Virus record (IMG/VR): IMGVR_UViG_3300043449_000334
Span: 1 to 30,088 of that record
DNA from: a virus
Strand: one strand, 5' to 3'
Length of the DNA: 30,088 nt
The position numbers and the translations under genes were made by a program. Within the stretch, counting starts at the first letter, position 1, and every line of letters starts with the position of its first letter. The notes under the pieces were generated by a model. It had not been told where the DNA came from and did not search any database. It was given only the letters and a program-made list of their open reading frames with translations. Positions 1,156 through 30,088 of this stretch are shown here, piece by piece.

Positions 1156-3321
1156 TTACCTCCTCATCCCAATCATTACGTTAGCAATCTGCGAAACAAT
1201 GATTACTGGGATAATGACTTCTTGGGCTTTTTCTCTCTGATCATCTGTCATGTCCATACCTAATTCAGAGAAATTAGATAGGAGTTCTACTGGGTCCACT
1301 GCAAATACTGCTCCAAGTGGGTCTGCTAAAAATGCTTCTGTTTGTACTTCTGTTACTGCATCTGCTAATGTAAATGGCATTGGGGCTTCTCCTGCATCCC
1401 CTGCTCTTTCTGCGAACTCAACAAATGCTGATGCTACTGCAGGATCTGATTTCATTGCCTCCGCTACCTTTGCAACTTCGCCTGCTGATATACCAAGGTC
1501 AGATGCAAGTTCTTGTTTTGCTTCTTGAGTCAAAGACTTGAGAGTCTGGCTAACTGCTGCTGTTTGCTCTGGAGAAAGTTTAACTAACTTATTGTCCTTG
1601 CTTGTAAGGTTTGCAATAACTCCAGATAAATCTTCTGCTGTACCAGTTCCTTTTTCTGGGATAAGTGCTGCCAACTCTGCATCCTTGATAACTGGGTCAA
1701 TGTTTTCTGCTGGCTTAAAGTCTGGCTTTGGCAGTGGCTTAGGCTCTGGAGATGGCTTGACAGGAGGCTCTGGAGTAGGCTCTGGCTTTGGTTCAGGACT
1801 TGGGGCAGGTGTAGGCTTAGGTTCCTCTGGCTTTGTTGGCTCAGGTTTTGGCTCTTCTGGTTTAGGTTCCTCTGGCTTTGGCTCTGGCTGTGTTGGCTTT
1901 GGTCCTGGCTCTTCTGTTCCAGTAGCATTGCTTGGCTTAGGCTCAGGTTTATCTGTTGGTGGTGGAGAAGGCTTTGGCTTTTCTGGTTCAAGAGTTGGCT
2001 GTGGGGTTGGCTCTGGTTTAGGTTGGTTTGCTGCAGCGTTTGCTGCTGCCTGAGCAATGGCTCTTTGGATTTCTCGCTGCATCTGCTCATCATAATAACG
2101 CCATGCATCATCAATTGCACTATTTAAATCATTGATAGCATTATTAAAATTATTTATTGCGTTATTCTTTTCAGAAAGAGCATCTTCTGTATCATTTACT
2201 GCGTTGTCATACTCAGATTCTTTGTTGGTCAATGTTTGATTTAATGAGTTTAGTTCTGAAACAGCCTGATTATATACACTCAGTTTGTCATTATATTCTG
2301 ACAAAGCATTGTTATAATCTTGTTGGGCTGCATTCTTGGTAGCAAGTGCTTGATCATAAGCATTTAATTGTTCCTGTGTTGGTCCAGATCCAGATGAGAA
2401 TGTATTTAAGTTACAACTAAAATCTTGACCCCAAACTCTTGGATTCCCAGCATAGTCACACCCTGCGCCAGTCATTCCACCAGGAATTGTCCAACCAAGA
2501 TGATAAGATCCTGGGCCTCCTCCGTTATACCACCATATTTCTACATCTAAAGTCTTATCCTCACTTACATCATACGCTGGAGACCAAGCACTCCATCTTG
2601 CTCCTTGCTCTACCCAATTGCTAACAGCAAGTTGTCCATCAACATACATTTTAAAACCATCGTCTGTGTAGCCTGCAAATGATACTGTTGTAAACCATGA
2701 AGGCATTGTGATTTGTCCAGTAAACTTAACTACTATATTTTCATACCTATTTCCACAAACTGGAAGATACATGGCGTTTGAGTTCCAGGTGCCAGAACAA
2801 ATAACAGAATCTGGCACTGCTATGCTTGGCCAAACCCTTGCAAGATTATAAACGGTGTATTGAAGTCCTGTTCCACCAGCAGACTGCATATTGGACTGTG
2901 CTGTTTGAAGATTAATGTTGGCTATATTAAGGGCATCCTGTGCATCATTCTTGTCTTGAAGAGCATTGTCTTTATTCTCAAGGGAAAGTGCTACTGTTGC
3001 TGTCTGGCCATCCACATTTGACTGGGCAAGACTAACTTCATCTAGGGCTAGTTCTTCTGCCTCTACTGCATCTTCATAGGCTTGATAGGCATCGTCTCTT
3101 ATATCCCCCAGGTTTTTGGCATAGGTAAACTTGTTTTCTGCTATATCAATTAGGCTTATTAGACCATCCTTATAGTCCAATTTATTTACTGCGCTATTGA
3201 GGTTTTGTATCTGTCCTGCTGCGACAGTTAATGGATCATCAGAATGGGCTTCTTGTGGGGCAATAAGTAGCCAGCCAAAGGCTAAAGTTGTGGCTGTTAC
3301 TATTCGTAGTAGTCGTTTGAT
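1156..3321 (-). CDS. Secreted PA14-domain protein, coiled-coil and proline-rich, AUC start
   Basis: The frame is open back to a TAA directly before position 3321. No ATG, GTG or TTG occurs until a TTG at 3180 that lacks an RBS. Starting at the ATC at 3321, behind GGGGGAAAGG, gives 721 residues with a clear signal peptide: basic KRLLR, a hydrophobic core, and a likely cut after AHS (residue 27). Next come a coiled coil (about 50-148), a PA14-like beta-sandwich (about 150-285, with GYTDDGFKMYVDG), a second coiled coil (about 315-430), a long Pro/Glu/Lys-rich stretch (about 434-545), and a C-terminal region ending in a hydrophobic segment capped by Arg-Arg. PA14 domains often bind carbohydrate. 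The layout suggests an envelope-spanning protein anchored at its C-terminus. It may act in lysis or on the cell surface. The function is unknown. Confidence 0.7.
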   Translation of the reverse strand: MKRLLRIVTATTLAFGWLLIAPQEAHSDDPLTVAAGQIQNLNSAVNKLDYKDGLISLIDIAENKFTYAKNLGDIRDDAYQAYEDAVEAEELALDEVSLAQSNVDGQTATVALSLENKDNALQDKNDAQDALNIANINLQTAQSNMQSAGGTGLQYTVYNLARVWPSIAVPDSVICSGTWNSNAMYLPVCGNRYENIVVKFTGQITMPSWFTTVSFAGYTDDGFKMYVDGQLAVSNWVEQGARWSAWSPAYDVSEDKTLDVEIWWYNGGGPGSYHLGWTIPGGMTGAGCDYAGNPRVWGQDFSCNLNTFSSGSGPTQEQLNAYDQALATKNAAQQDYNNALSEYNDKLSVYNQAVSELNSLNQTLTNKESEYDNAVNDTEDALSEKNNAINNFNNAINDLNSAIDDAWRYYDEQMQREIQRAIAQAAANAAANQPKPEPTPQPTLEPEKPKPSPPPTDKPEPKPSNATGTEEPGPKPTQPEPKPEEPKPEEPKPEPTKPEEPKPTPAPSPEPKPEPTPEPPVKPSPEPKPLPKPDFKPAENIDPVIKDAELAALIPEKGTGTAEDLSGVIANLTSKDNKLVKLSPEQTAAVSQTLKSLTQEAKQELASDLGISAGEVAKVAEAMKSDPAVASAFVEFAERAGDAGEAPMPFTLADAVTEVQTEAFLADPLGAVFAVDPVELLSNFSELGMDMTDDQREKAQEVIIPVIIVSQIANVMIGMRR

Positions 3322-3425: not shown

Positions 3426-4586
3426 TTACTTAAGCAAAGCAACCTTTGCCTTTGGATTCTTCTTATTCCACTGAAGAGCCAACTTATTAAATGCAGCCTT
3501 TACAGACTTAATTGCTGCTGCATTATCTGCAGTTAACTTAGCAATCTGTGCATCCTTTGCAGCAAGAGCAGCATCTGAAGCAACCTTTGCATCGGCTAGT
3601 GCCTTAGCAGAAGCAGCCTTCTCAGCAGCAAGTGCAGTTGCAGAAGCAGCCTTTTCTGCTGCAAGAGCAGCATCTGAAGCAACCTTTGCAGCAGCAGCAT
3701 CTGCAGCAGCCTTTGCAACTGCAGCCTCAGCGACTGCCTTTGCAGCAAGTGCTGCATCCTTAGCAGAAACCTGTGCAGCAAGTTCTGATACTAGATCACG
3801 AACTGCAATTTCTGCAAATGGTGCAAGTGCACGAGCAGGAAGTCCAACTACGTCTGCAGATGTTGCATCTGTTGATGTTGTTGGTGCAAATGTGATCAGT
3901 GTGCGTGTTCCAGTTGCTGGAAGTGTTGCCTTGAATGTAGCAACTCCAAAGTCTGAAAGTGTAGCGCCAGTTGTTGCTGTTGCTGTATCTAGTGTTGCTG
4001 TAGCAGCAAATACTGTTGCAGTGATTGACTTACCTGATACCTTGTTACCAAATGTATCTGTTGCAGTCACTGTAATATCCTGCTTTGTACCAGCAGCACC
4101 TGAAGTAGGTGCGGATACTGAAAGAGTGTTAATCTTTCCAGCAGTTCCCTGTACATAATATGTAAGAGTGGTTCCCTGGTTGTTGATTACAACTGTTCCA
4201 ATTGCTGTTGTCTTTGTGTAAACATAAAATGTTGCTGTTGTTCCTGTACCAGTTGCAATTGTCAAAGATGATGATCCTGATGTTGCTCCTACTGGTGCAG
4301 CAGATGTGTGTAATGCAGACACGATTGTTGCGTTTGTTGCTGTTACAGAAACGTTTGTTCCTGTGTCAACTGTTGCTACGAACTTTAGTGCGTCAGCAGC
4401 GTCAACTGTGTTATCTGCAGGGACTGGCAATGATGCAGGCGTTGCGATTGCTGATGCTGTAGTGTTTGCTACAGTGTCAAGCGATACAGCGACTGTCATT
4501 ACAGCAGCACTTGCAGGTGTTGCTACGATTGTGCCCAAAGTCATGGCTGCAACCATGGCTAGTGCGATTTTCTTGAATGAATTCAT
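3426..4586 (-). CDS. Secreted Ig-like and coiled-coil surface protein
   Basis: This 386-residue protein has a classic Sec signal peptide (basic NSFKK, hydrophobic core, cut after PASA at about residue 27). A Thr/Ala/Val-rich beta region follows, including an invasin-type bacterial Ig-like segment at about residues 150-250 (VSAPTSGAAGTKQDITVTAT). Then comes an alanine-rich heptad-like region (about 265-350) and a basic end (KNPKAKVALLK). It resembles envelope or surface-layer-type proteins of freshwater actinobacteria more than phage structural proteins, which is recalled family knowledge and not a search. The RBS AAGGAG is 7 bases from the ATG. The gene sits between the large terminase subunit and a terminator, like a cargo gene. 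Coating the infected cell to block other phages, or serving as a virion decoration, are possible roles. Function is unknown. Confidence 0.7.
   Translation of the reverse strand: MNSFKKIALAMVAAMTLGTIVATPASAAVMTVAVSLDTVANTTASAIATPASLPVPADNTVDAADALKFVATVDTGTNVSVTATNATIVSALHTSAAPVGATSGSSSLTIATGTGTTATFYVYTKTTAIGTVVINNQGTTLTYYVQGTAGKINTLSVSAPTSGAAGTKQDITVTATDTFGNKVSGKSITATVFAATATLDTATATTGATLSDFGVATFKATLPATGTRTLITFAPTTSTDATSADVVGLPARALAPFAEIAVRDLVSELAAQVSAKDAALAAKAVAEAAVAKAAADAAAAKVASDAALAAEKAASATALAAEKAASAKALADAKVASDAALAAKDAQIAKLTADNAAAIKSVKAAFNKLALQWNKKNPKAKVALLK
3562..3690. repeat. 30-bp direct repeat inside the coiled-coil coding region
   Basis: An identical 30-base segment occurs at 3562-3591 and 3661-3690, offset by 99 bases (33 codons). 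It encodes the motif AKVASDAALA of the alanine-rich helix. The surrounding sequence is a run of related Ala/Lys/Glu repeats, so the coiled coil probably grew by in-frame duplication. A slippage-prone repeat could let its length vary among relatives. Confidence 0.7.
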
Positions 4587-4602: not shown

Positions 4603-6399
4603 TTATAGTGTTTTTAGTCTGTCCAAATAGTCTTTTATCTCTTCTATTTGGCTAGGCTTATATTGTATCACATTGCGACTTTCCAGGTCAAATTGCTCTT
4701 CTGGAGTCTTTGGTCTGTCTCTAAAGGTGTGAACCTCTACTTCAGTGTCTATATTTTTTGGAGTATGTGATATTGCTCCAAATATTGCTCCACATACCGC
4801 ATCTGCTAAGTCCTTAGATTTTTTGCGGGGGTGATCAACTCTATCATTTTTCATAATCTTTAATTGAGTTAACTCATCAAATAAAAGATCGATTGCTGGC
4901 ATTGCAAGTCTTTCCTCATACACAAGCATAGCCATATCCTCATAATGTTTTTTGGCAACAGAAACAGTATCAGTTTTCATTCCAACCTGCTTTAGTTCAT
5001 TCTGAATATCAAACGACTGCCAACGGTCAAAAGAAACCATTCCAATATCAAACCCTAGTCTTCTAAGGTTCTGGATCCACTGTTTAACTTCTGACAAATT
5101 AACTGGCCCCTCAACCTTTGGCTCCCACCATGCAACTGCATCTACAACTACTACTGGAGCAACCTGTTCGTAATTATTAATTACCTGTATGTTTACCCAC
5201 TTATCCACATGTGCAATTGCTACAGCACACTTGTCGTGTTTTTGGGCAAGGTCAGCATGAACATAATACTTCTTTGTTGGGTCTGGCTTAAATGATTCAT
5301 CAAACCTTCTAAAGTTATCTATTGGGTTTCTTAATGTCATACATGATCTAACCTTGTCTGCTTGCTTAAAGAATGCATCAGAAGCAAAGGTTGGTACACA
5401 AGCAAAACGCATCATAGCGTCTCCAAGATCAGTCATAAATGCAATCATGAAGTCATCAATCTTACGAGTAGGATTTACTTCCCATGTAGGCCTTTTTAGT
5501 GCAAATACTCCTGGATATTTATATGATGTGATTTGATCTTCATCCCACGAAATTTCAAAGGTATTATCTAGATTATCTTCTGGAAGCAATGGATTAATAA
5601 TAAATTTATGCGTTCTTTCTATAACTTCTTTTTCAGCAACAACATCGTCATATCTTTCTGAAATAAAGTCGCCTGGATATCTTGGGAATGAAAGCAAAAC
5701 AACTTTTCCAAGGTCAGGGAAACGAGAGTCTACTGATCCACGGAAAGCCTTGTAGATGTTATCTGCTGTTTTACCCTGCTCATTTCCTGTTCCAACCTCA
5801 GATGCAAAACCAGAAATTTCATCAAGAACGGCAAGCAGGAGGTTTAAACCCTCATGAGATTCTCTTTCTGAGTGACCAGAATAAACTGTAATTGATTTGT
5901 CAAACTCAATCGAGTCAGCCTTCGCATAATACTTGCCTGCAAACCATGGAGACCTTTCAATCTTTGACTTAAACCCTTTAAAGAAAACATTCTTAGCCTG
6001 TTGAGCGTTAATAGCAACGTTAATTAGATCAATAGCATCTCCAGAGGGCTTACCAAAATATTTTGCTGGGTCTTTTAAACATAGAAGTTTGTATACGATG
6101 TATGAGCATGCTACGGTTGATGTGAAGTCTTTTCCAGATCCCTTGCCAAGTTGCAGAATGATTTCGTTCTTGGTGTACTTGTTGTAATACTGAGTACCCT
6201 TTTCTTCACCCATAATATTAACTAAGTCTTCTTTTCTATAAATCTGGCTCATTGCCTCAACAATGTCGTACTGAATATCAGACAATGGTGGCTGCCCTAG
6301 ATATGCTTCGCCTTCAACAAATGTTCTTGCATCTACTGGAGTCTCTTCAAAATGATCATCTTGAAGTGCTTCAAGAAACTCATTGAACATCATGGACAA
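4603..6399 (-). CDS. terL: Terminase large subunit (packaging ATPase-nuclease)
   Basis: This 598-residue protein has both terminase domains. In the N-terminal ATPase, Walker A is LGKGSGKD (residues 84-91) and Walker B with the catalytic Glu is LLLAVLDE (about 187-194). The C-terminal RNase H-like nuclease has acidic residues in HADLAQ (D383), SFDRW (D458) and KSKDLADA (D530, D533). It cuts concatemeric DNA and drives it into the prohead. The first codon is TTG, 7 bases after GAGGTG. An ATG at 6393 is the alternative start. The gene overlaps the small subunit gene by 20 bp. The gene identity is firm. Confidence 0.93.
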   Translation of the reverse strand: MSMMFNEFLEALQDDHFEETPVDARTFVEGEAYLGQPPLSDIQYDIVEAMSQIYRKEDLVNIMGEEKGTQYYNKYTKNEIILQLGKGSGKDFTSTVACSYIVYKLLCLKDPAKYFGKPSGDAIDLINVAINAQQAKNVFFKGFKSKIERSPWFAGKYYAKADSIEFDKSITVYSGHSERESHEGLNLLLAVLDEISGFASEVGTGNEQGKTADNIYKAFRGSVDSRFPDLGKVVLLSFPRYPGDFISERYDDVVAEKEVIERTHKFIINPLLPEDNLDNTFEISWDEDQITSYKYPGVFALKRPTWEVNPTRKIDDFMIAFMTDLGDAMMRFACVPTFASDAFFKQADKVRSCMTLRNPIDNFRRFDESFKPDPTKKYYVHADLAQKHDKCAVAIAHVDKWVNIQVINNYEQVAPVVVVDAVAWWEPKVEGPVNLSEVKQWIQNLRRLGFDIGMVSFDRWQSFDIQNELKQVGMKTDTVSVAKKHYEDMAMLVYEERLAMPAIDLLFDELTQLKIMKNDRVDHPRKKSKDLADAVCGAIFGAISHTPKNIDTEVEVHTFRDRPKTPEEQFDLESRNVIQYKPSQIEEIKDYLDRLKTL

Positions 6400-24100: not shown

Positions 24101-25494
24101 ATTAACTGTCCTACTGGCAAACCACTAAGGCCAAGGTCTGAAGCACTTTTGTTTACCGAATAGTCTAATGTTTTATCTGATACATTCATAACCAGTCTTG
24201 GAGACATCTCTATAAGATCAAATGTTGAGTCTTTTACATTCATAGAATCGACCACAATTCTTATTCCAGAAATATACTCAAACTCTCTGTACTGTGCTTT
24301 ACCATCTAAAGATCTTGTAAATACGTTTGGGGATGTTGCATCTACAACAAAGTTAGTAAGTCTATCAACAGTTTCATCTTGAACATACCATCCATATTTT
24401 GGTGTTAACTTTGTGTAATCTGTTCCATTCCAAATATGAAACTTTCCTATATCGTTTTCATTTTGTTTAATTAAGTATGCATAGCCAATAACAGATTTTT
24501 CAGGAAGTAATGACTCACTAGCATAGACTTCAGCAAAAACAAAGTTTAACCTCCACTCATCTGGGACTATTAATCCATACGCAATCTCAACATATCCATC
24601 ACTTTTAATAATTGGTGAGCCATCTGCTCTTCTGATTGATGGATTAAAAGACATCACATCTTCCCAGTTGCCATCTTTTAAAAATTGAATTTTCCATCTG
24701 CTTGGAACTTTTTGGTTTAACTCACCAAAAAATGGATCTGAAAATGATCCAGTTGGAGAAGAAAAAGGACCAAGATTTTCTGTTCCAGTATGTGTTTGCA
24801 TCTTAACAACAACTCTGTTTGCAGGAACCTTTTCTTTATAAACAACAAAAGGGCAAGCATCTTCTATAGAATTCTGAGAGCCTCTAACTTTAGAGGCAAT
24901 GCCGTACTCTGAAATACTTTCAATACTTCCTAACTTTTCTTTGCCATCTCTATCCACGAATGTTTGTGAAGATCCGTATCCAAAAGTTCCATTATTGTAG
25001 GAATACTTGTACGTTACTTCGCTTCTATACGAAGTCCAATATTTAAATTTATCATTTTTATCTGGCATATAATATCTTGGTCTGTCTGCCATAAAAAGGT
25101 TAGGATGATGAAGCCATCCGTCTTTAAAAAATACTGCCTTATTAATTCCAGATCTTGGCCTGAACTGCTCAAAGCATGCCTCTAAAGAATATAGAGTACT
25201 TGTTTTTTCTTTTTTTGTTAAAAATGCTGTTGGTACATCGTCATTATCAAATGTTCCATCCACTACAACATCAGCATCTGTAGCACCTGTATAGAAGTTT
25301 CCAGCATCATTAACATCAAAACTTGTAGGAAGAGAAGAATAAATGGAACCAGTCTCCGTTGGTCTATAGCGATAGTTTCCAATATGCTTTATATTGGTTG
25401 GTATGTTCATGTTCCATTCTGCTGTTATTATTGACTTGTTACGTACCGTCGGAGAAGTCTCTAAAAATGTTTGCAGGTCTTTGTCTTCAAACAT
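21103..25494 (-). CDS. Large tail protein with LamG-like domain
   Basis: A 1463-residue protein, the largest complete one here. The N-terminal third is strand-rich with many aromatic residues. Residues about 540-660 (ILMTEVSVSSAVSLLLDHIG, FFVGPDKSVAEVLQDLA) resemble the baseplate-hub or tail-associated segments of actinophage minor tail proteins. Residues about 980-1175 match a concanavalin/LamG-like sandwich, ending in FYLYINGKMIKTVDDLD and MFENIYALS. The C-terminal end (FSRGPDGPDMTLFLSEV) recalls the end of such hub proteins. It probably forms the tail tip and contacts cell-surface sugars. GGAAGAGG, encoded by the last codons of the upstream gene, precedes the ATG. No peptidase motif was found. 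Confidence 0.75.
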   Translation of the reverse strand: MFEDKDLQTFLETSPTVRNKSIITAEWNMNIPTNIKHIGNYRYRPTETGSIYSSLPTSFDVNDAGNFYTGATDADVVVDGTFDNDDVPTAFLTKKEKTSTLYSLEACFEQFRPRSGINKAVFFKDGWLHHPNLFMADRPRYYMPDKNDKFKYWTSYRSEVTYKYSYNNGTFGYGSSQTFVDRDGKEKLGSIESISEYGIASKVRGSQNSIEDACPFVVYKEKVPANRVVVKMQTHTGTENLGPFSSPTGSFSDPFFGELNQKVPSRWKIQFLKDGNWEDVMSFNPSIRRADGSPIIKSDGYVEIAYGLIVPDEWRLNFVFAEVYASESLLPEKSVIGYAYLIKQNENDIGKFHIWNGTDYTKLTPKYGWYVQDETVDRLTNFVVDATSPNVFTRSLDGKAQYREFEYISGIRIVVDSMNVKDSTFDLIEMSPRLVMNVSDKTLDYSVNKSASDLGLSGLPVGQLIASNGNIRIFDYDQAFNENNKASIIAKYINRHVQFKFYEVIVDVAGWDYYIPIKTLYSDSFPKQDLMGKTVSLSLRDMYWYLESLTAPQILMTEVSVSSAVSLLLDHIGYSNYTFRRVANEKETIIPYFFVGPDKSVAEVLQDLAVSTQTAMFFDEYNNFVMMSKDYIMPTREQRETTFELKGTQDLFESKEIKNKTVSNSKLANVISVSVQPNNVYNDGVINYTTRHIQRSVGSIRQASLLDDERIYTYKPALLWEVSGTENTKSINNEVNTQSAYVLSAIPLNSNLSADVPVVKNNVLINNTFSLGEAAYWITRYNGYFYSQGEIIKYDAVQYNVSGFGNVWITSTEDYQNYFSKLPFNGKIYPTGLVRIYAEPKYFEQSGVIKLQNGEVHKHGRGQFGTTVVAHSAGVSDYWKSDDNVKGCYMSAEYMFEKKTPLPVTTIDAAGKTTDTNVSSDALARTSSRTGLIKNFMSTVMSGEITTSTQPRPGSLQSSALSITGPNFTTKEKPRNFISYVHKSLPDSKYKHFGTRVRIIGKIESSKDSGQTANGSSNLYVVNGSTPDKNINVSGGTAGISVLLNTSTNVGYYFEIAALGLESLSEEDRQSVSNVFFYKIKSDNGKAIPIPLYDGLAKITVDDGRFTGQSRMFAEENPTVYDLAVEYEDIGKTRRFYLYINGKMIKTVDDLDPTPAYSNMALFTRGSSRAMFENIYALSNNYSQNTAFSLDVPVNSVFGDSEINASESFRKYAMSGLVQDTYLSGISSAESPRYSMYFEEFGSIMREAAVFNFKYDKAYPALTAKISPTFNKIKGYVVSGFRAGSYGAEFLIFNATDSALSLDETSGNYLRIQGITFTQQSANTLTVDDYFNKNSSLSNPQFVADKLISNPYKFKQDYQDIKLSRMTYGKKDFAIDTPYIQSQDEATSLMKWMVEKTTKPRKSVGVKIFSIPTIQLGDIVTLDYKENGVSMASDSASRFVVYNIDFSRGPDGPDMTLFLSEVL

Positions 25495-26135
25495 TATACC
25501 TCTTCCAGACTTATTGAGACATTCCAGTAATCAAAATTGCTTCCTCTTTTTTCAACAGAGTATGAAAAATCACTAATAAACATTTCAATTAGTTGGTTAT
25601 ACTGTCCAAGATGATCGTATGGCTCTGGAGTGCCTTTAAATATACCTTTTCTATCATATGCAAGATATACCCAGAAGGATCCTTTATGAGAGTCATACCA
25701 TTCCAGCATGTCTGCTCCTCCTGCGCCACCATCAGTCGTGTAAGACTTGTATGGAGAAACTCCAGTAATAGTATTGAATGTGGGAACATTTGCGTGAGAT
25801 CTGGACGGAATTAAATTCCAACTTGTGCTTAGTTTTAACTTATCTGCAATATGGTATGACCTCATACGGCCATTAATCATTCTTTCACGCTTTTCAATTC
25901 TTTCTTCTGAAAAGTCTAGTGGCTGCCTATTATCATCAGTAATTAATAAAAACTGATCTAGCAGAGACTCATCCTCAACACTTTCTGGATCTACGCCTAT
26001 CTCATAGCCGTTTGGCACATATAAGCCATTCTTAAGTGTACCAGAATTTTCAGACCATAGCATACCACTTGGTCTGTTATATTTCTTACGACCTTGTATG
26101 TAGGTTACCCTAGGATCTATCTCTTCATCGGCCAT
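25494..26135 (-). CDS. Distal tail protein candidate
   Basis: A 213-residue protein directly after the tape measure gene, where the distal tail protein is normally encoded. It is strand-rich with YNQLIEMFISDFSYSVEK and a final DYWNVSISLEEV, an ending typical of tail-tube-related and distal tail proteins, in which the last strands form the ring. It would join the tube end to the tail tip protein. It overlaps its neighbours by 11 bp and 1 bp. The call is from position and pattern. Confidence 0.6.
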   Translation of the reverse strand: MADEEIDPRVTYIQGRKKYNRPSGMLWSENSGTLKNGLYVPNGYEIGVDPESVEDESLLDQFLLITDDNRQPLDFSEERIEKRERMINGRMRSYHIADKLKLSTSWNLIPSRSHANVPTFNTITGVSPYKSYTTDGGAGGADMLEWYDSHKGSFWVYLAYDRKGIFKGTPEPYDHLGQYNQLIEMFISDFSYSVEKRGSNFDYWNVSISLEEV

Positions 26136-29100
26136 TTAAGGACACTCCCCTAATTCTTCTATCGTCAACCCTCTTGATTGTTGACATTACTGCTTGTGCA
26201 ATATCATTTGGATTTGCGTCTGTCTTAGCATTAACTGTTAATGTATATGTATTATTATACACTGTACCGCCAACAGAATCACCATTATTTATTTTTCTCA
26301 TAGTATCTACACCATACGAATCAACAGCATACTTACTCATTATAAATTCTCCTGGAGTTAACATTGCTGGAATAGTGTCTGTACCCTTTGCAAAACCGCC
26401 AACAGCAAAGTACTTAGGAATAAGTCCGCCCTTAGCCTTGTATTTGGGAGGAATAAACATGCTTCCGTTATAAACGCCAGTTCCTGGAACCAGAGTCTTC
26501 TTTGGTGCTTGAATGTTGTCTGGAATCCCATTTTTATCTAAGTCTTTTGGTGCTGGAGCAACAGGCTTTGGAACCATCAATGGTGGGAATGCCTTTGCAA
26601 CAGACCCCGTACCCTTTATACCAGTTCCTGGGACGGGTGTTAGAACTGTCTTTGGTGGTGCCTGAATAAGGTCTGGAATGCCATTCTTGTCGTCATCCTT
26701 ATAACTTGGAGTAGTTGTTTTTGGTGTAGTTACTGGTGGAAGGATTGGAGGAAGCAAAGACACGCAGTTTCCGTTTCCATCTGATTTAGTTCCCCCTGGA
26801 CATGGCTTTGGGGTTGTTGGTGGAACTATTGGATTCAGTACAGAGGTACAGTTTCCGTTTGCATCTAGTCTAGTGCCTGCTGGACACCCTGTAGTCTTCG
26901 GTGTAGGAGTAGGTGTAGGTGTAGGTGTTGGAGTAGGTGTAGGTGCTGGAGTTGCTTTTGGTGTTGGTTCAGGCTCTTCTTCTGTTGCATTTACTACTGC
27001 TGCCTGATACTGTGGTAAAAGTTTTTCTCCCTTATAAAGTTTTATTAAGTCTTCGCTATAGGCAACTGCTCTTTGTAGAGATTCTTCATACCCCTTTACA
27101 CCTATTCTGGCCATCTCTACTTGAGTTTTTATTTGTTCCCATTGATCTCTTGTCATTCCCGCAACTTTTACGCTATCAATTGCGGTCTTCAAATCAATTT
27201 CTGCTAACCTAATCTTATCTTGCTTTGGCTCTATTATGTCTTCTTCTTTATTGAATATTTCATCTTGAAGAGTTTTTATTTCTTCTTCAAGTTGTTTCCT
27301 GGTTTTTCTTTTCTTGTCTGTTTTATCAAACCCAGTAACTCTAGAAAGTTCAAACTCTCTAGATTGCTCTAGCGCTTCCTTTTCTTTAGTGACTGCATCT
27401 GCTGCTGCTTGTGCTCTCATGTCCTGAGCAGCCCTTGCTGCTGCTGCGATATCTCCAGAAGTTAATGCCTCTGCAAGGGTTAACTGTCCCTTTTGTTGAG
27501 CAGAGATTGCAGCATTTGCCTTTTCAACTTCATCAAGCGCTTCAATTCTCTCGTCATACTTATCATTAATTTTTTGCTCTTGGTCTTCTATAGACTTTAA
27601 TGCTGCTTCTTTGTCGTCAACATTATACTGAATTGCTGCTATCTCATTTTGTGCTTTTTCAATTTCTTTATTTAATGAGTCAGTGCTTATTTCAAAGTCT
27701 ATCTGCAGTGCTTGTTCTTTTACATCAAATGCATCCATTCCTTTGCTATACACTTCATTAAACATGTCTTCATATAGACCAATTGTGCTTTTCAGTTGTC
27801 CCAATCTTTCTTCAAACTGAGCAATTGAGTCTGCCAAGTCGTCGCTTGCTTTTTGAATTGCAGCGGCTTTCATATCTTTTGTAAAGGTTTTACTTATGCC
27901 CTTACTTCGTAATCTATTTAATGCACTAACCTGTGATGCAATAGAAGCATCTAGGGCTTTTAGATTCTCGTCAGAGTTTACTGCAAAAGCGCCTACTTCA
28001 TCTAGAGGCTGTCCGTCTCCTCTTTGCAGTTTCTTCAGTCTGTCTTCTTGTAGTCTATCTTTCTTAAACTGAGCAGTATCTGTTTTGACATTTTGAACTG
28101 CTGCTGATCTTTCTTGTGCTACAGTCAAAACCTTATACTTGGCAATTAGTGTTTTTAATGATTTTTCATTTACCCCATTAGCAATTGATGCTGCTATTGC
28201 CTTATCAGATATTAACTCATAAGCATCTGCTACTGGAACACCTAACTTAGAAAGTTTATCAAAAGCAGTACTTTGATCTTCAATAGATTTAAGTTGTGAC
28301 TCCATGTTGGTATTCCAGTCACCCATGGTTATGGAGTTTAGAGCCTCTTGAATGTTCTTAGCATCTCTCTTTAATGCTATGATGTTTCCTTTATTATCAA
28401 ACTTAAATAAAGAGTTCTTTTTCTTTTCGTATTCCTTTGGATCCATTCCAACTATCAAAGAGATAAGATCTTCGCTTCCGCCAAGACCTCTTAGGTCATT
28501 TTCAATTCCACTGAATACGTCAATTGTCTTTTTCCCACCAAATAGATTATCTAGAACCTTTCGTGATGCACTCCAGCCTTCTGTAACCTTGATCTGATTC
28601 TTTCTTACATCTCTTAATTTCTTTACTAGGTCGTCTAGCGGAGAAGACTCTACCTTTGATGTTCCACTAGTTACGCCAGTCTTAGGTGCTTCTGGCTCAG
28701 CCTTTGATGCCTCTGTTACTGCAAATGCAGATGCACGATAGTAGTCTCCTTCAGTTTTTCCAGGGTTGGCTGCTAACCAATCTTGTATCGCTTTCTTATT
28801 ATTACCCTCCATGTTTACCATTGTAGTAAGAGTCTGGAGATAAACCTTTTGCTGCTCAGGTGGCAAAGAGTTAAAGTATTCTTGATCTGCCTTAAGGACT
28901 GCCATCTCTTCAGCACCAATAATGTTTGTTGCAATGTCTAAAGTGATCTTTCCCTTTTGTTTATTGATTTCATCAATTGTTGTTTGAAGCGCTGCTGCTG
29001 CAGTTGGGTTATTATTGTAATAGTCAAGGGCAACACTAATGTCTGGAATTGCAGCACCTAGTTGAGAAATTCTTTGGAATAGTTCAAGTTGTTTTGCTGC

Positions 29101-30088
29101 TTCGGCAGAACTCTTTACAGATATATCAGCAACAAACTTTGTGGCCTGCTTAGGATCTTTAAACATACCAACAATTCCCATCATCTGGTTTGCAAACTTT
29201 CCTCCAAACTTTCCTACAATAGAAACAACCTTTTCAATTGAGGCCTTGTCTTTACCAAATGTTTCAAATATTTCAATCATTTGCATTGGGTCAATGGCAC
29301 CACTAGCCATTTCCATTTTTAATGTATACTTTAGTTCATCTGCTACTCCAGAATCATTGATCTGTTGTTGAGCCAGAGGGACTACATCTTCCAGAGCAGT
29401 ACCCTTGTATTGCTTTGTAACAGCCTTGTCTGCTCCAGTCATTAATGCTTTTCTTGTTGCACCTTCTGAATTTTTATAACTATTTTGAATATCTGTTACA
29501 AGTTTTCCGTTTTGCTCAAGAAGTCTAATTCTGTCCTCAATAAAAGTGTTTGTTAGTTCTTCTGCTTTTGCCTGATCTCCTGTTGCTTGAGCAGTTGCAA
29601 GTTTTGTCTGATATTCCAACTCTACAGAGTCCATCATCTCTTGCTGTTGCTGCAAAGCAATCTTTTGCATAGCGACACTTGCGCCTGATGCAGTTCCTAT
29701 CCTCTTGTTTCTTTCTGCTCTTCCTATGAAATTTCCTGCAACAGTTCCAATAGTTGCTCCTATTTTTGCTCCAAGTATTGCTCCTGCTGCTGCACCTGGT
29801 GGGCCACCAATGGCTCCTAGCAATCCTCCAGCAATTGCCCCTCCGACTGCTCCTGCTGCTGCACCTACACCCATGCCTGCTGCAGTCTGTCCTAAATCTT
29901 TACCAGTCCATCCGCCAGCCTTTCTTGCTGCATCTGAAGAAAGATTCATCTTGGTTCTAGTTTCTTCTAATATTTTTACCCTAATGCCTATTGGATCAGT
30001 AAGCAGGTTTTCTCCATTTGGACCAAGTAGTTGATTTAGTTTTCCATTAACTTCAATTCCAAAACTGTAGTCACCTAACTCTTGTCCA
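26125..30088 (-). CDS. Tape measure protein, 5' end outside the window
   Basis: The frame is open to the right edge. 46 more codons read through above the ATG at 29949, so that Met is probably internal and at least 1320 residues are present. There is a Gly/Ala-rich hydrophobic segment with glycine-zipper spacing (just after the Met), then long coiled coils, including Lys/Glu-rich stretches at about 27200-27800 and 28600-29700. A (Thr-Pro) linker with unusual Cys and Asp repeats (26503-26886) follows. The C-terminus carries GGFAKGTDTIPAMLTPGEFI, the motif found at the C-terminus of many tape measures. It sets tail length and enters the cell envelope during DNA ejection. At about 0.15 nm per residue the tail would be roughly 200 nm or more. 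Confidence 0.9.
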   Translation of the reverse strand, partial: GQELGDYSFGIEVNGKLNQLLGPNGENLLTDPIGIRVKILEETRTKMNLSSDAARKAGGWTGKDLGQTAAGMGVGAAAGAVGGAIAGGLLGAIGGPPGAAAGAILGAKIGATIGTVAGNFIGRAERNKRIGTASGASVAMQKIALQQQQEMMDSVELEYQTKLATAQATGDQAKAEELTNTFIEDRIRLLEQNGKLVTDIQNSYKNSEGATRKALMTGADKAVTKQYKGTALEDVVPLAQQQINDSGVADELKYTLKMEMASGAIDPMQMIEIFETFGKDKASIEKVVSIVGKFGGKFANQMMGIVGMFKDPKQATKFVADISVKSSAEAAKQLELFQRISQLGAAIPDISVALDYYNNNPTAAAALQTTIDEINKQKGKITLDIATNIIGAEEMAVLKADQEYFNSLPPEQQKVYLQTLTTMVNMEGNNKKAIQDWLAANPGKTEGDYYRASAFAVTEASKAEPEAPKTGVTSGTSKVESSPLDDLVKKLRDVRKNQIKVTEGWSASRKVLDNLFGGKKTIDVFSGIENDLRGLGGSEDLISLIVGMDPKEYEKKKNSLFKFDNKGNIIALKRDAKNIQEALNSITMGDWNTNMESQLKSIEDQSTAFDKLSKLGVPVADAYELISDKAIAASIANGVNEKSLKTLIAKYKVLTVAQERSAAVQNVKTDTAQFKKDRLQEDRLKKLQRGDGQPLDEVGAFAVNSDENLKALDASIASQVSALNRLRSKGISKTFTKDMKAAAIQKASDDLADSIAQFEERLGQLKSTIGLYEDMFNEVYSKGMDAFDVKEQALQIDFEISTDSLNKEIEKAQNEIAAIQYNVDDKEAALKSIEDQEQKINDKYDERIEALDEVEKANAAISAQQKGQLTLAEALTSGDIAAAARAAQDMRAQAAADAVTKEKEALEQSREFELSRVTGFDKTDKKRKTRKQLEEEIKTLQDEIFNKEEDIIEPKQDKIRLAEIDLKTAIDSVKVAGMTRDQWEQIKTQVEMARIGVKGYEESLQRAVAYSEDLIKLYKGEKLLPQYQAAVVNATEEEPEPTPKATPAPTPTPTPTPTPTPTPKTTGCPAGTRLDANGNCTSVLNPIVPPTTPKPCPGGTKSDGNGNCVSLLPPILPPVTTPKTTTPSYKDDDKNGIPDLIQAPPKTVLTPVPGTGIKGTGSVAKAFPPLMVPKPVAPAPKDLDKNGIPDNIQAPKKTLVPGTGVYNGSMFIPPKYKAKGGLIPKYFAVGGFAKGTDTIPAMLTPGEFIMSKYAVDSYGVDTMRKINNGDSVGGTVYNNTYTLTVNAKTDANPNDIAQAVMSTIKRVDDRRIRGVSLNGR
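26503..26886. repeat. Two pairs of peptide repeats in the tape measure linker
   Basis: Two copies of a Cys-bounded motif, CPAGTRLDANGNC (26848-26886) and CPGGTKSDGNGNC (26764-26802), are followed by two copies of an Asp-rich motif, KDDDKNGIPDLIQAP (around 26656-26703) and KDLDKNGIPDNIQAP (around 26503-26550). The Asp motif has the spacing DxDxNGIPD of thrombospondin type-3 calcium loops. The copies differ at synonymous and non-synonymous sites, so the duplications are old. Confidence 0.75.

Follow-up and report, generated by a model that had tools for sequence, protein, structure and literature searches.

The tape measure protein (TMP) encoded in the window, i.e., the whole 30,088-nucleotide stretch analysed here (positions 1 to 30,088 of the IMG/VR virus record IMGVR_UViG_3300043449_000334), carries a hypervariable slot ahead of its conserved C-terminal domain, and four short motif units, two cysteine-bounded and two resembling calcium-binding loops, are located in this slot. 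We consider it very probable that such a slot exists and has envelope character. With a probability of about 0.5, the modules that it holds would be envelope-acting elements that stay unfolded while threaded in the tail and fold or form disulfide bonds outside the cytosol. The selection acting on the calcium-type loops, together with a slot shared with wall-binding and wall-cutting domains, suggests that the modules work on the host envelope after leaving the tail.

The TMP gene (26125..30087, minus strand) is represented by 1320 residues, its 5' end lying outside the window. It was identified by a match of its C-terminus to phrog_3547, tail length tape measure protein (E 1.1e-4), and by PhageMin_Tail (PF10145), which was detected in all three long homologues scanned (L002, L003, and L006; E 2.4e-22 to 1.1e-24); the profile scan of the 5'-truncated window copy gave no PF10145 match. 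The gene precedes tail-tip genes, and its position is syntenic with that of annotated TMPs, as the next tail gene (25494..26135, minus strand) matches the gene that follows annotated TMPs in named Streptomyces phages. In total, 132 named-phage records (127 Streptomyces, 5 Rhodococcus) matched the product of this gene over 70% of its length. The terminase of the window shares ~55% identity, across its entire length, with those of Streptomyces phages such as Kenrey, Wofford, and StarPlatinum, and this kinship, together with the Streptomyces and Rhodococcus phage records matched by the gene after the TMP, makes an actinobacterial host likely. Three further proteins deserve mention. A 224-aa protein of locus L049 (frame starting at 4637) resembles the 25494-26135 product and has its own DxDxNGIPD loop (DFDENGIPDLVT) at residue 110, which by eye is missing from the window counterpart. 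The window also encodes a 674-aa protein (1156-3180, minus strand) that has coiled-coil parts, repeats rich in proline, lysine, and glutamate, and a PA14 match below threshold (E 0.003), and, beside the terminase, a 386-aa protein with an apparent N-terminal signal peptide and an alanine-rich tail at its end (3426-4586, minus strand).

A preliminary description of this sequence had reported two CPxGTxxDxNGNC and two DxDxNGIPD units in the linker of a TMP, and all four are indeed present at that place in a true TMP, with 26503-26886 spanning exactly these units. The slot (26431..26988, minus strand, as are all features within it; residues 1034-1219) extends from the coiled-coil part to the C-terminal domain (26128..26430, minus strand, beginning with GGLIPKYFAVGGFAKGTDTIPAMLTPGEF), which resembles the C-termini of named syntenic TMPs. 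In reading direction, cysteine loop 1 (CPAGTRLDANGNC, 26848..26886) and cysteine loop 2 (CPGGTKSDGNGNC, 26764..26802) are followed by calcium-loop-like unit 1 (DDDKNGIPDLIQ, 26662..26697; pN/pS 0.069), a conserved spacer (VLTPVPGTGI...PAPK, 26545..26646; pN/pS 0.23) that separates it from calcium-loop-like unit 2 (DLDKNGIPDNIQ, 26509..26544; pN/pS 0.039), and a segment directly ahead of the C-terminal domain (LVPGTGVYNGSMFIPPKYKAK, 26431..26493) that is shared with L171 and L173 and similar in L210. The full form of both calcium-loop-like units is DxDxNGIPDxIQ. The four motifs are far above chance for the composition of the linker: 200,000 shuffles of its 186 residues gave an expectation per linker of 3e-5 for D.D.NG.PD and 9.5e-5 for C..GT.....G.C, and two of each were observed.

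By the nine-residue Dx[DN]xDG pattern alone (D1, D/N3, D/N5, G6, D/E9), which both window loops fit, the DxDxNGIPD units are candidate calcium loops. The likeness to thrombospondin type-3 loops proposed earlier gained no support, with no Pfam match for 26503-26904 at E ≤ 0.1, a Gln at position 12 and loops devoid of cysteines. EF-hand membership is likewise unsupported: all 19 TMP loops listed have Gln at position 12, where Asp or Glu is required, which disfavours an EF-hand-type site, and no helix was placed at the calcium-type loops in the low-confidence model, in contrast to the flanking helices of an EF-hand. EB, cEGF, and TIL domains gave only sub-threshold Pfam matches, in L174, L180, and L409 and none in the window. 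The window slot had no NCBIfam match, and a profile search of solved structures returned weak matches only (E 0.36; the rest 1.4 or worse). The model of the window slot was poor (mean pLDDT 44.9), with the calcium-type loops in blocks of 40-46. The two cysteine loops were modelled by AlphaFold2 as short hairpins and were its best-scored parts (block means 56-74; 56-72 for loop 1 and 69-74 for loop 2), and five hairpins were likewise predicted, from sequence alone, for the five cysteine loops of L174 (block means 61-78).

The slot is a variable site, and the modules are alternatives within it. Relatives were fetched by the C-terminal domain alone, and the best 80 of at least 568 made up the window-family set (seeds L173 and L161 included); a search of genome contigs yielded only distant TMPs (77 loci), which were left out of the analysis. 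Among these best 80 of at least 568, duplicates included, 6 loci had calcium-type loops (in 0-3 copies across relatives), 11 had cysteines and 13 had either, and 67 had neither in the slot part available, the slot being truncated by a contig end in L155, L157, L164, L167, L201, and L207. As they are missing from the majority of the wider family, the calcium-type and cysteine modules are optional and do not form a universal tip lock. The earlier interpretation is supported in part: the motifs are kept and constrained within the clade and missing from most of the wider family. How local the variation is can be seen from the comparison of the window with L151, in which identity amounted to 97.2% in the coil, 44.2% in the cysteine half of the slot, 87.0% in its calcium-loop half, and 97.0% in the C-terminal domain. 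Other slots consisted, by eye, of proline/threonine repeats, glycine/serine repeats, or alanine-rich stretches, and in L409 calcium-type loops alternate with cysteine loops. LysM passed the Pfam cut-off in 5 of the 72 members scanned (L166, L174, L184, L211, and L224), always in the final ~70 aa ahead of the C-terminal domain, and L174 combines it with cysteine loops. The coils of L197 and L211 are 94% identical, and LysM is present in L211 with none visible in L197. On a quick tree of 63 rows, made without the slot and with long branches, the labels changed five times for cysteines, three times for LysM, and twice for calcium-type loops. That the modules are of an extracellular type, as had been suggested for the window, agrees with the LysM or Peptidase_M23 carried by the slot in relatives, although profile scans matched neither domain in the window TMP itself. 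These domains show the capacity of the slot, not the function of the loops.

The calcium-type loop also recurs before other TMP C-termini. A scan of IMG/VR for DxDx[ND]G[IV]PDxIQ retrieved 84 stretches, of which 80 were listed and, after the removal of 12 repeated contexts, 68 were distinct. With TMP status assigned on C-terminal motifs, 43 of these 68 distinct contexts listed were TMPs, which makes the pattern usable as a TMP marker; 9 belonged to the window family and 34 to others, on high-GC contigs, bearing different C-termini of GEAYxPL or TSDSI type. One example of each type (L094 and L441) matched PHROG TMP families. Named records matching the GEAYxPL-type C-terminus number 165 and come mainly from actinophages of Gordonia, Brevibacterium, Microbacterium, and Corynebacterium; of the 40 listed, 39 carry a TMP annotation. 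In this second TMP family, queried with its downstream region, the loop lies 4-11 aa before the query stretch in 12 of 68 unique loci (best 80 of 271 with 12 duplicates dropped), a count that includes 4 seeds (8 of 64 without them) and comes from a ranking that favours loop-bearing seeds; the conserved core of the 13 second-family loops is given by construction, as they were chosen by pattern. Direct profile comparison detected no homology between the C-termini of the two families, and a common origin of the loop in both therefore gets no support. Decayed loops were seen in the second family in L320 (DADGNGISDYVQ) and L326 (DPGLTGIPDDIR) and would be useful for testing loss. A separate motif scan gave 14 stretches, assigned by inspection to 9 window-family TMPs and 5 other proteins.

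The other 25 of the 68 contexts include L428, an 82-84-aa protein, and large proteins on low-GC contigs. L428 resembles another TMP by eye and was left out of the TMP count. The 82-84-aa protein (L037, L046, L098, L413, L425, L432, and L435) is conserved, has hydrophobic stretches, and carries DEDxNGIPDLIQAP, an extended motif nearly that of the TMP loops; L037, the copy scanned, had no Pfam match. Large proteins with DxDx[ND]G[IV]PDxIQ occur on the low-GC contigs L396, L414, L415, L416, L419, L421, L437, L440, and L446, and the one of L419 matches a PHROG virion structural protein. DxDxNGIPDxxE loops were seen by eye in a glutamine-rich helical family resembling portal C-termini (e.g., L025, L032, L044, and L067) and, within the same set of listed loci, at the extreme C-terminus of small holin-like membrane proteins (L017, L040, and L042).

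The main rival to envelope action is that DxDxNG[IV]PDxIQ(AP) may bind, with or without metal, a tail-tip protein by the TMP C-terminus, the cysteine hairpins being spacers. The invariant I11-Q12 speaks for such partner binding: it is unneeded for a nine-residue calcium loop, yet among the matches listed in a DxDxNGIPD scan the IQ ending is found in 19 of 19 TMP loops vs 3 of 93 other proteins (TMP status again resting on C-terminal motifs, and Fisher's p for the contrast ignoring relatedness), position 12 in the 93 being most commonly Glu (58). The place of the second-family loop, so close ahead of the C-terminal query stretch, points the same way, as does the location of the TMP C-terminus within the tip that is described for phages JBD30 and T1 (PMC11445458, PMC11945409). 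Most relatives with the same C-terminal domain nevertheless do without loops (only 6 of the best 80 of at least 568 have them), the copy number varies from none to three, and a single binding site would not require loops of the two kinds to alternate as they do in L409, so that we regard docking as rather unlikely.

The cysteines are confined to the slot. The four in the CPxGTxxDxNGNC units are the only ones in the 1320 residues of the window TMP; cysteine makes up on average 0.65% of the other window ORFs that were measured (47 of 7284). Across 71 non-redundant homologues (9 of the 80 loci were dropped as duplicates, and the slot was taken as the final 260 aa before the C-terminal domain), 46 cysteines were counted in 17,618 slot residues and none in 69,477 residues elsewhere. 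All eight cysteine-bearing slots had even numbers (2, 2, 4, 6, 6, 8, 8, and 10), the parity of the two with 2 (L155 and L157) being incomplete as they are truncated by contig ends, and the spacing inside a loop was mostly 11 or 12. Among 13 longer ORFs checked, cysteines were present in 11, each time as an even number and within the final 375 aa. An alternative account of these modules is that they were borrowed from host secreted proteins and bind a wall component or mimic surface proteins, with no folding by calcium or redox state. The LysM in the same slot, the proline/threonine-rich linkers and the sub-threshold EB, cEGF, and TIL matches of cysteine loops in relatives are in favour of this account, to which we also give a rather low probability; it is compatible with the envelope-module explanation, and both may hold together.

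In the named syntenic phages, the slot is occupied by a wall-cutting domain. All six TMPs of named syntenic phages (Francob, Comrade, StarPlatinum, BillNye, Muntaha, and Rhodococcus phage Trina) gave a Peptidase_M23 match (E 9.7e-24 to 8.8e-29), the domain ending 91-112 aa from the TMP end. The C-terminal domains of the window family and of these TMPs look homologous (hhalign E 3.8e-5, probability 71%, 77 columns). This similarity, combined with M23 in the slot of all six, suggests that in this lineage the slot is a place for cell-wall modules. The Stanwilliamsviridae phages (StarPlatinum, Comrade, BillNye, and Muntaha), Francob and Trina are thus like the window in the following genes and in the C-terminal domain and differ from it in the content of the slot, with no cysteine in the 814-818 residues examined of each TMP and no DxDxNG loop in the final 350 aa. 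More broadly, the C-terminal motif is widespread in named phages, and the calcium-type loop was absent from the examined part of seven fetched named-phage matches to TMP C-termini; a tblastn search with the short loop gave two matches, both to one phage, and was too insensitive to count. The preliminary description had proposed that the motifs may lock or release the tip in response to calcium or redox conditions, or contact the tip proteins; in the calcium version of this idea, the TMP tip would be retained in the virion by calcium, whose loss or gain would trigger ejection. The loops do adjoin the C-terminal domain and fit the nine-residue calcium-loop pattern, but optional, swappable modules are ill-suited to a core trigger and the six named TMPs have no such loops in the parts examined; judged on these sequences, a calcium-regulated lock seems improbable.

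The core of the calcium-type loops is under strong purifying selection and not drifting. In eight sequences, which take in L010, L055, L070, and L112 from loop-based searches and L003 from a six-peptide search with one peptide inside the loop, the core of both loops (D1, D3, N5-D9, I11, and Q12; 18 codons) had no nonsynonymous difference at 1232 pooled pairwise sites, with a pS of 0.67. In the six-sequence subset without L010 and L112, in which L055 and L070 were recovered independently as L155 and L164 by the C-terminal-domain search, there was again none at 660 sites (pS 0.69). For comparison, pN/pS over the eight sequences was 0.09 in the C-terminal domain, 0.36 in the coil, 0.44 in the cysteine loop, and 0.49 in the segment directly before the C-terminal domain, and the cysteine loop is hence less constrained than the calcium-type loop. 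The two window loops differ at 0.74 of synonymous sites with an identical core, which marks them as old copies held alike, and the patterns tried brought up no half-decayed loop in the 80 loci (best 80 of at least 568). Drift in a disordered linker, the case that would have undone the earlier proposal, is not what we observed within the clade, the loop cores of the eight sequences being free of amino-acid changes. A neutral low-complexity linker, with drifting repeats spread through DNA duplication, is very improbable: the slot is variable and rich in repeats, the two loop copies of L003 use the same codons throughout and stem from a recent duplication, and L409 has one variant loop (DKDKDGTPDVIQ) with two core changes (N5D and I7T), but these signs stand against a core with no nonsynonymous change at a pS of about 0.7, the divergence of the window copies around a shared core, the recurrence of the loop in a second TMP family, and cysteine counts that are even and confined to the slot.

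In the explanation that we prefer, the slot before the TMP C-terminus would be a cassette site for envelope modules that act once the TMP exits the tail, the cassettes being M23 peptidase in the named syntenic relatives and LysM, cysteine hairpins, or calcium-loop-like units in the metagenomic ones. During tail assembly, the reducing, low-calcium cytosol would keep the small modules unfolded and the TMP threadable in the tail tube. At ejection, or at an exposed tip, they would encounter calcium and oxidising conditions and become disulfide-closed hairpins and calcium-clamped turns, and, once folded, could give the ejected TMP an anchor or a brace within the cell wall while DNA is delivered. 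We put forward this anchoring by folding on exit tentatively, as somewhat less probable than even. In a more specific version, the slot modules would be environment-gated clasps, calcium-free and reduced during assembly and closed in turn by calcium and oxidation while the TMP emerges; having folded outside, they would keep it from sliding back and would fix the DNA-delivery conduit in the wall. This version is unlikely. For the TMP of JBD30, which occupies the tail tube and has its C-terminal end at the baseplate, both ejection and the formation of a conduit have been proposed (PMC11445458), and ejection into the periplasm has been proposed for the TMP of RcGTA (PMC7296036). Dx[DN]xDG motifs are described as biased to extracellular proteins and tied there to the higher calcium outside cells (PMC3123361). 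From these ejection proposals and this bias, we infer that loops and hairpins would suit a protein threaded unfolded and folding outside.

TMPs are usually read as rulers, some with known wall-cutting or wall-binding domains, and wall-directed modules in TMPs, LysM or M23 included, are already known; searches of open-licence papers, with a few of those listed followed up, brought up no description of loops and hairpins of this kind, of their restriction to a single slot, or of their recurrence ahead of other TMP C-termini. Here, modules of four types (wall-cutting, wall-binding, cysteine-paired, and calcium-loop-like) are accommodated at one defined site by the C-terminal domain, and outside this site the TMP is stable and lacks cysteines. 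The slot is thus a testable handle on the envelope role of the released TMP and on calcium acting in DNA delivery via the TMP. If the clasps were real, several TMP families would possess a ratchet for phage DNA delivery that responds to calcium and redox state, and calcium-dependent DNA entry would have a direct molecular candidate.

Several known systems can be set beside the window slot. The integrin alpha-5 propeller (4wjk, 4wk4; DLDGNGYPDLI) has D1, D3, N5, G6, and D9 in common with the window loops, but the match is weak (E 1.4), the window loops have no recognised propeller or fold, and I11 and Q12 are also nearly fixed in them. Thrombospondin type-3 repeats have the DxDxNGxPD spacing of the window units, which differ in being isolated, 51 residues apart, cysteine-free, and unmatched in Pfam. 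RTX repeats of type I secreted proteins are unfolded in the cytosol and fold in calcium outside; they share the folding logic proposed here, with a different motif and with secretion in place of ejection from a phage tail. Parallels also come from other TMPs: a peptidoglycan hydrolase motif (motif 3) in the TMP of mycobacteriophage TM4 aids the infection of stationary cells (PMC1796659), the TMP of Bacillus phage Stills has LysM and lysozyme domains (PMC4541274), and Basilisk-like phages and relatives have TMPs with M23 or LysM/lysozyme domains (PMC6145125); in phages Slash, Blastoid, and A-1(L), the LysM described is in proteins other than the TMP. As is proposed for the window, the TM4, Stills, and Basilisk-like TMPs contain a variable wall-directed module, which in TM4 is helpful for DNA delivery and not essential, but their modules are enzymes or LysM, whereas those of the window are short loops, calcium-type or cysteine-paired, in which no domain is recognised.
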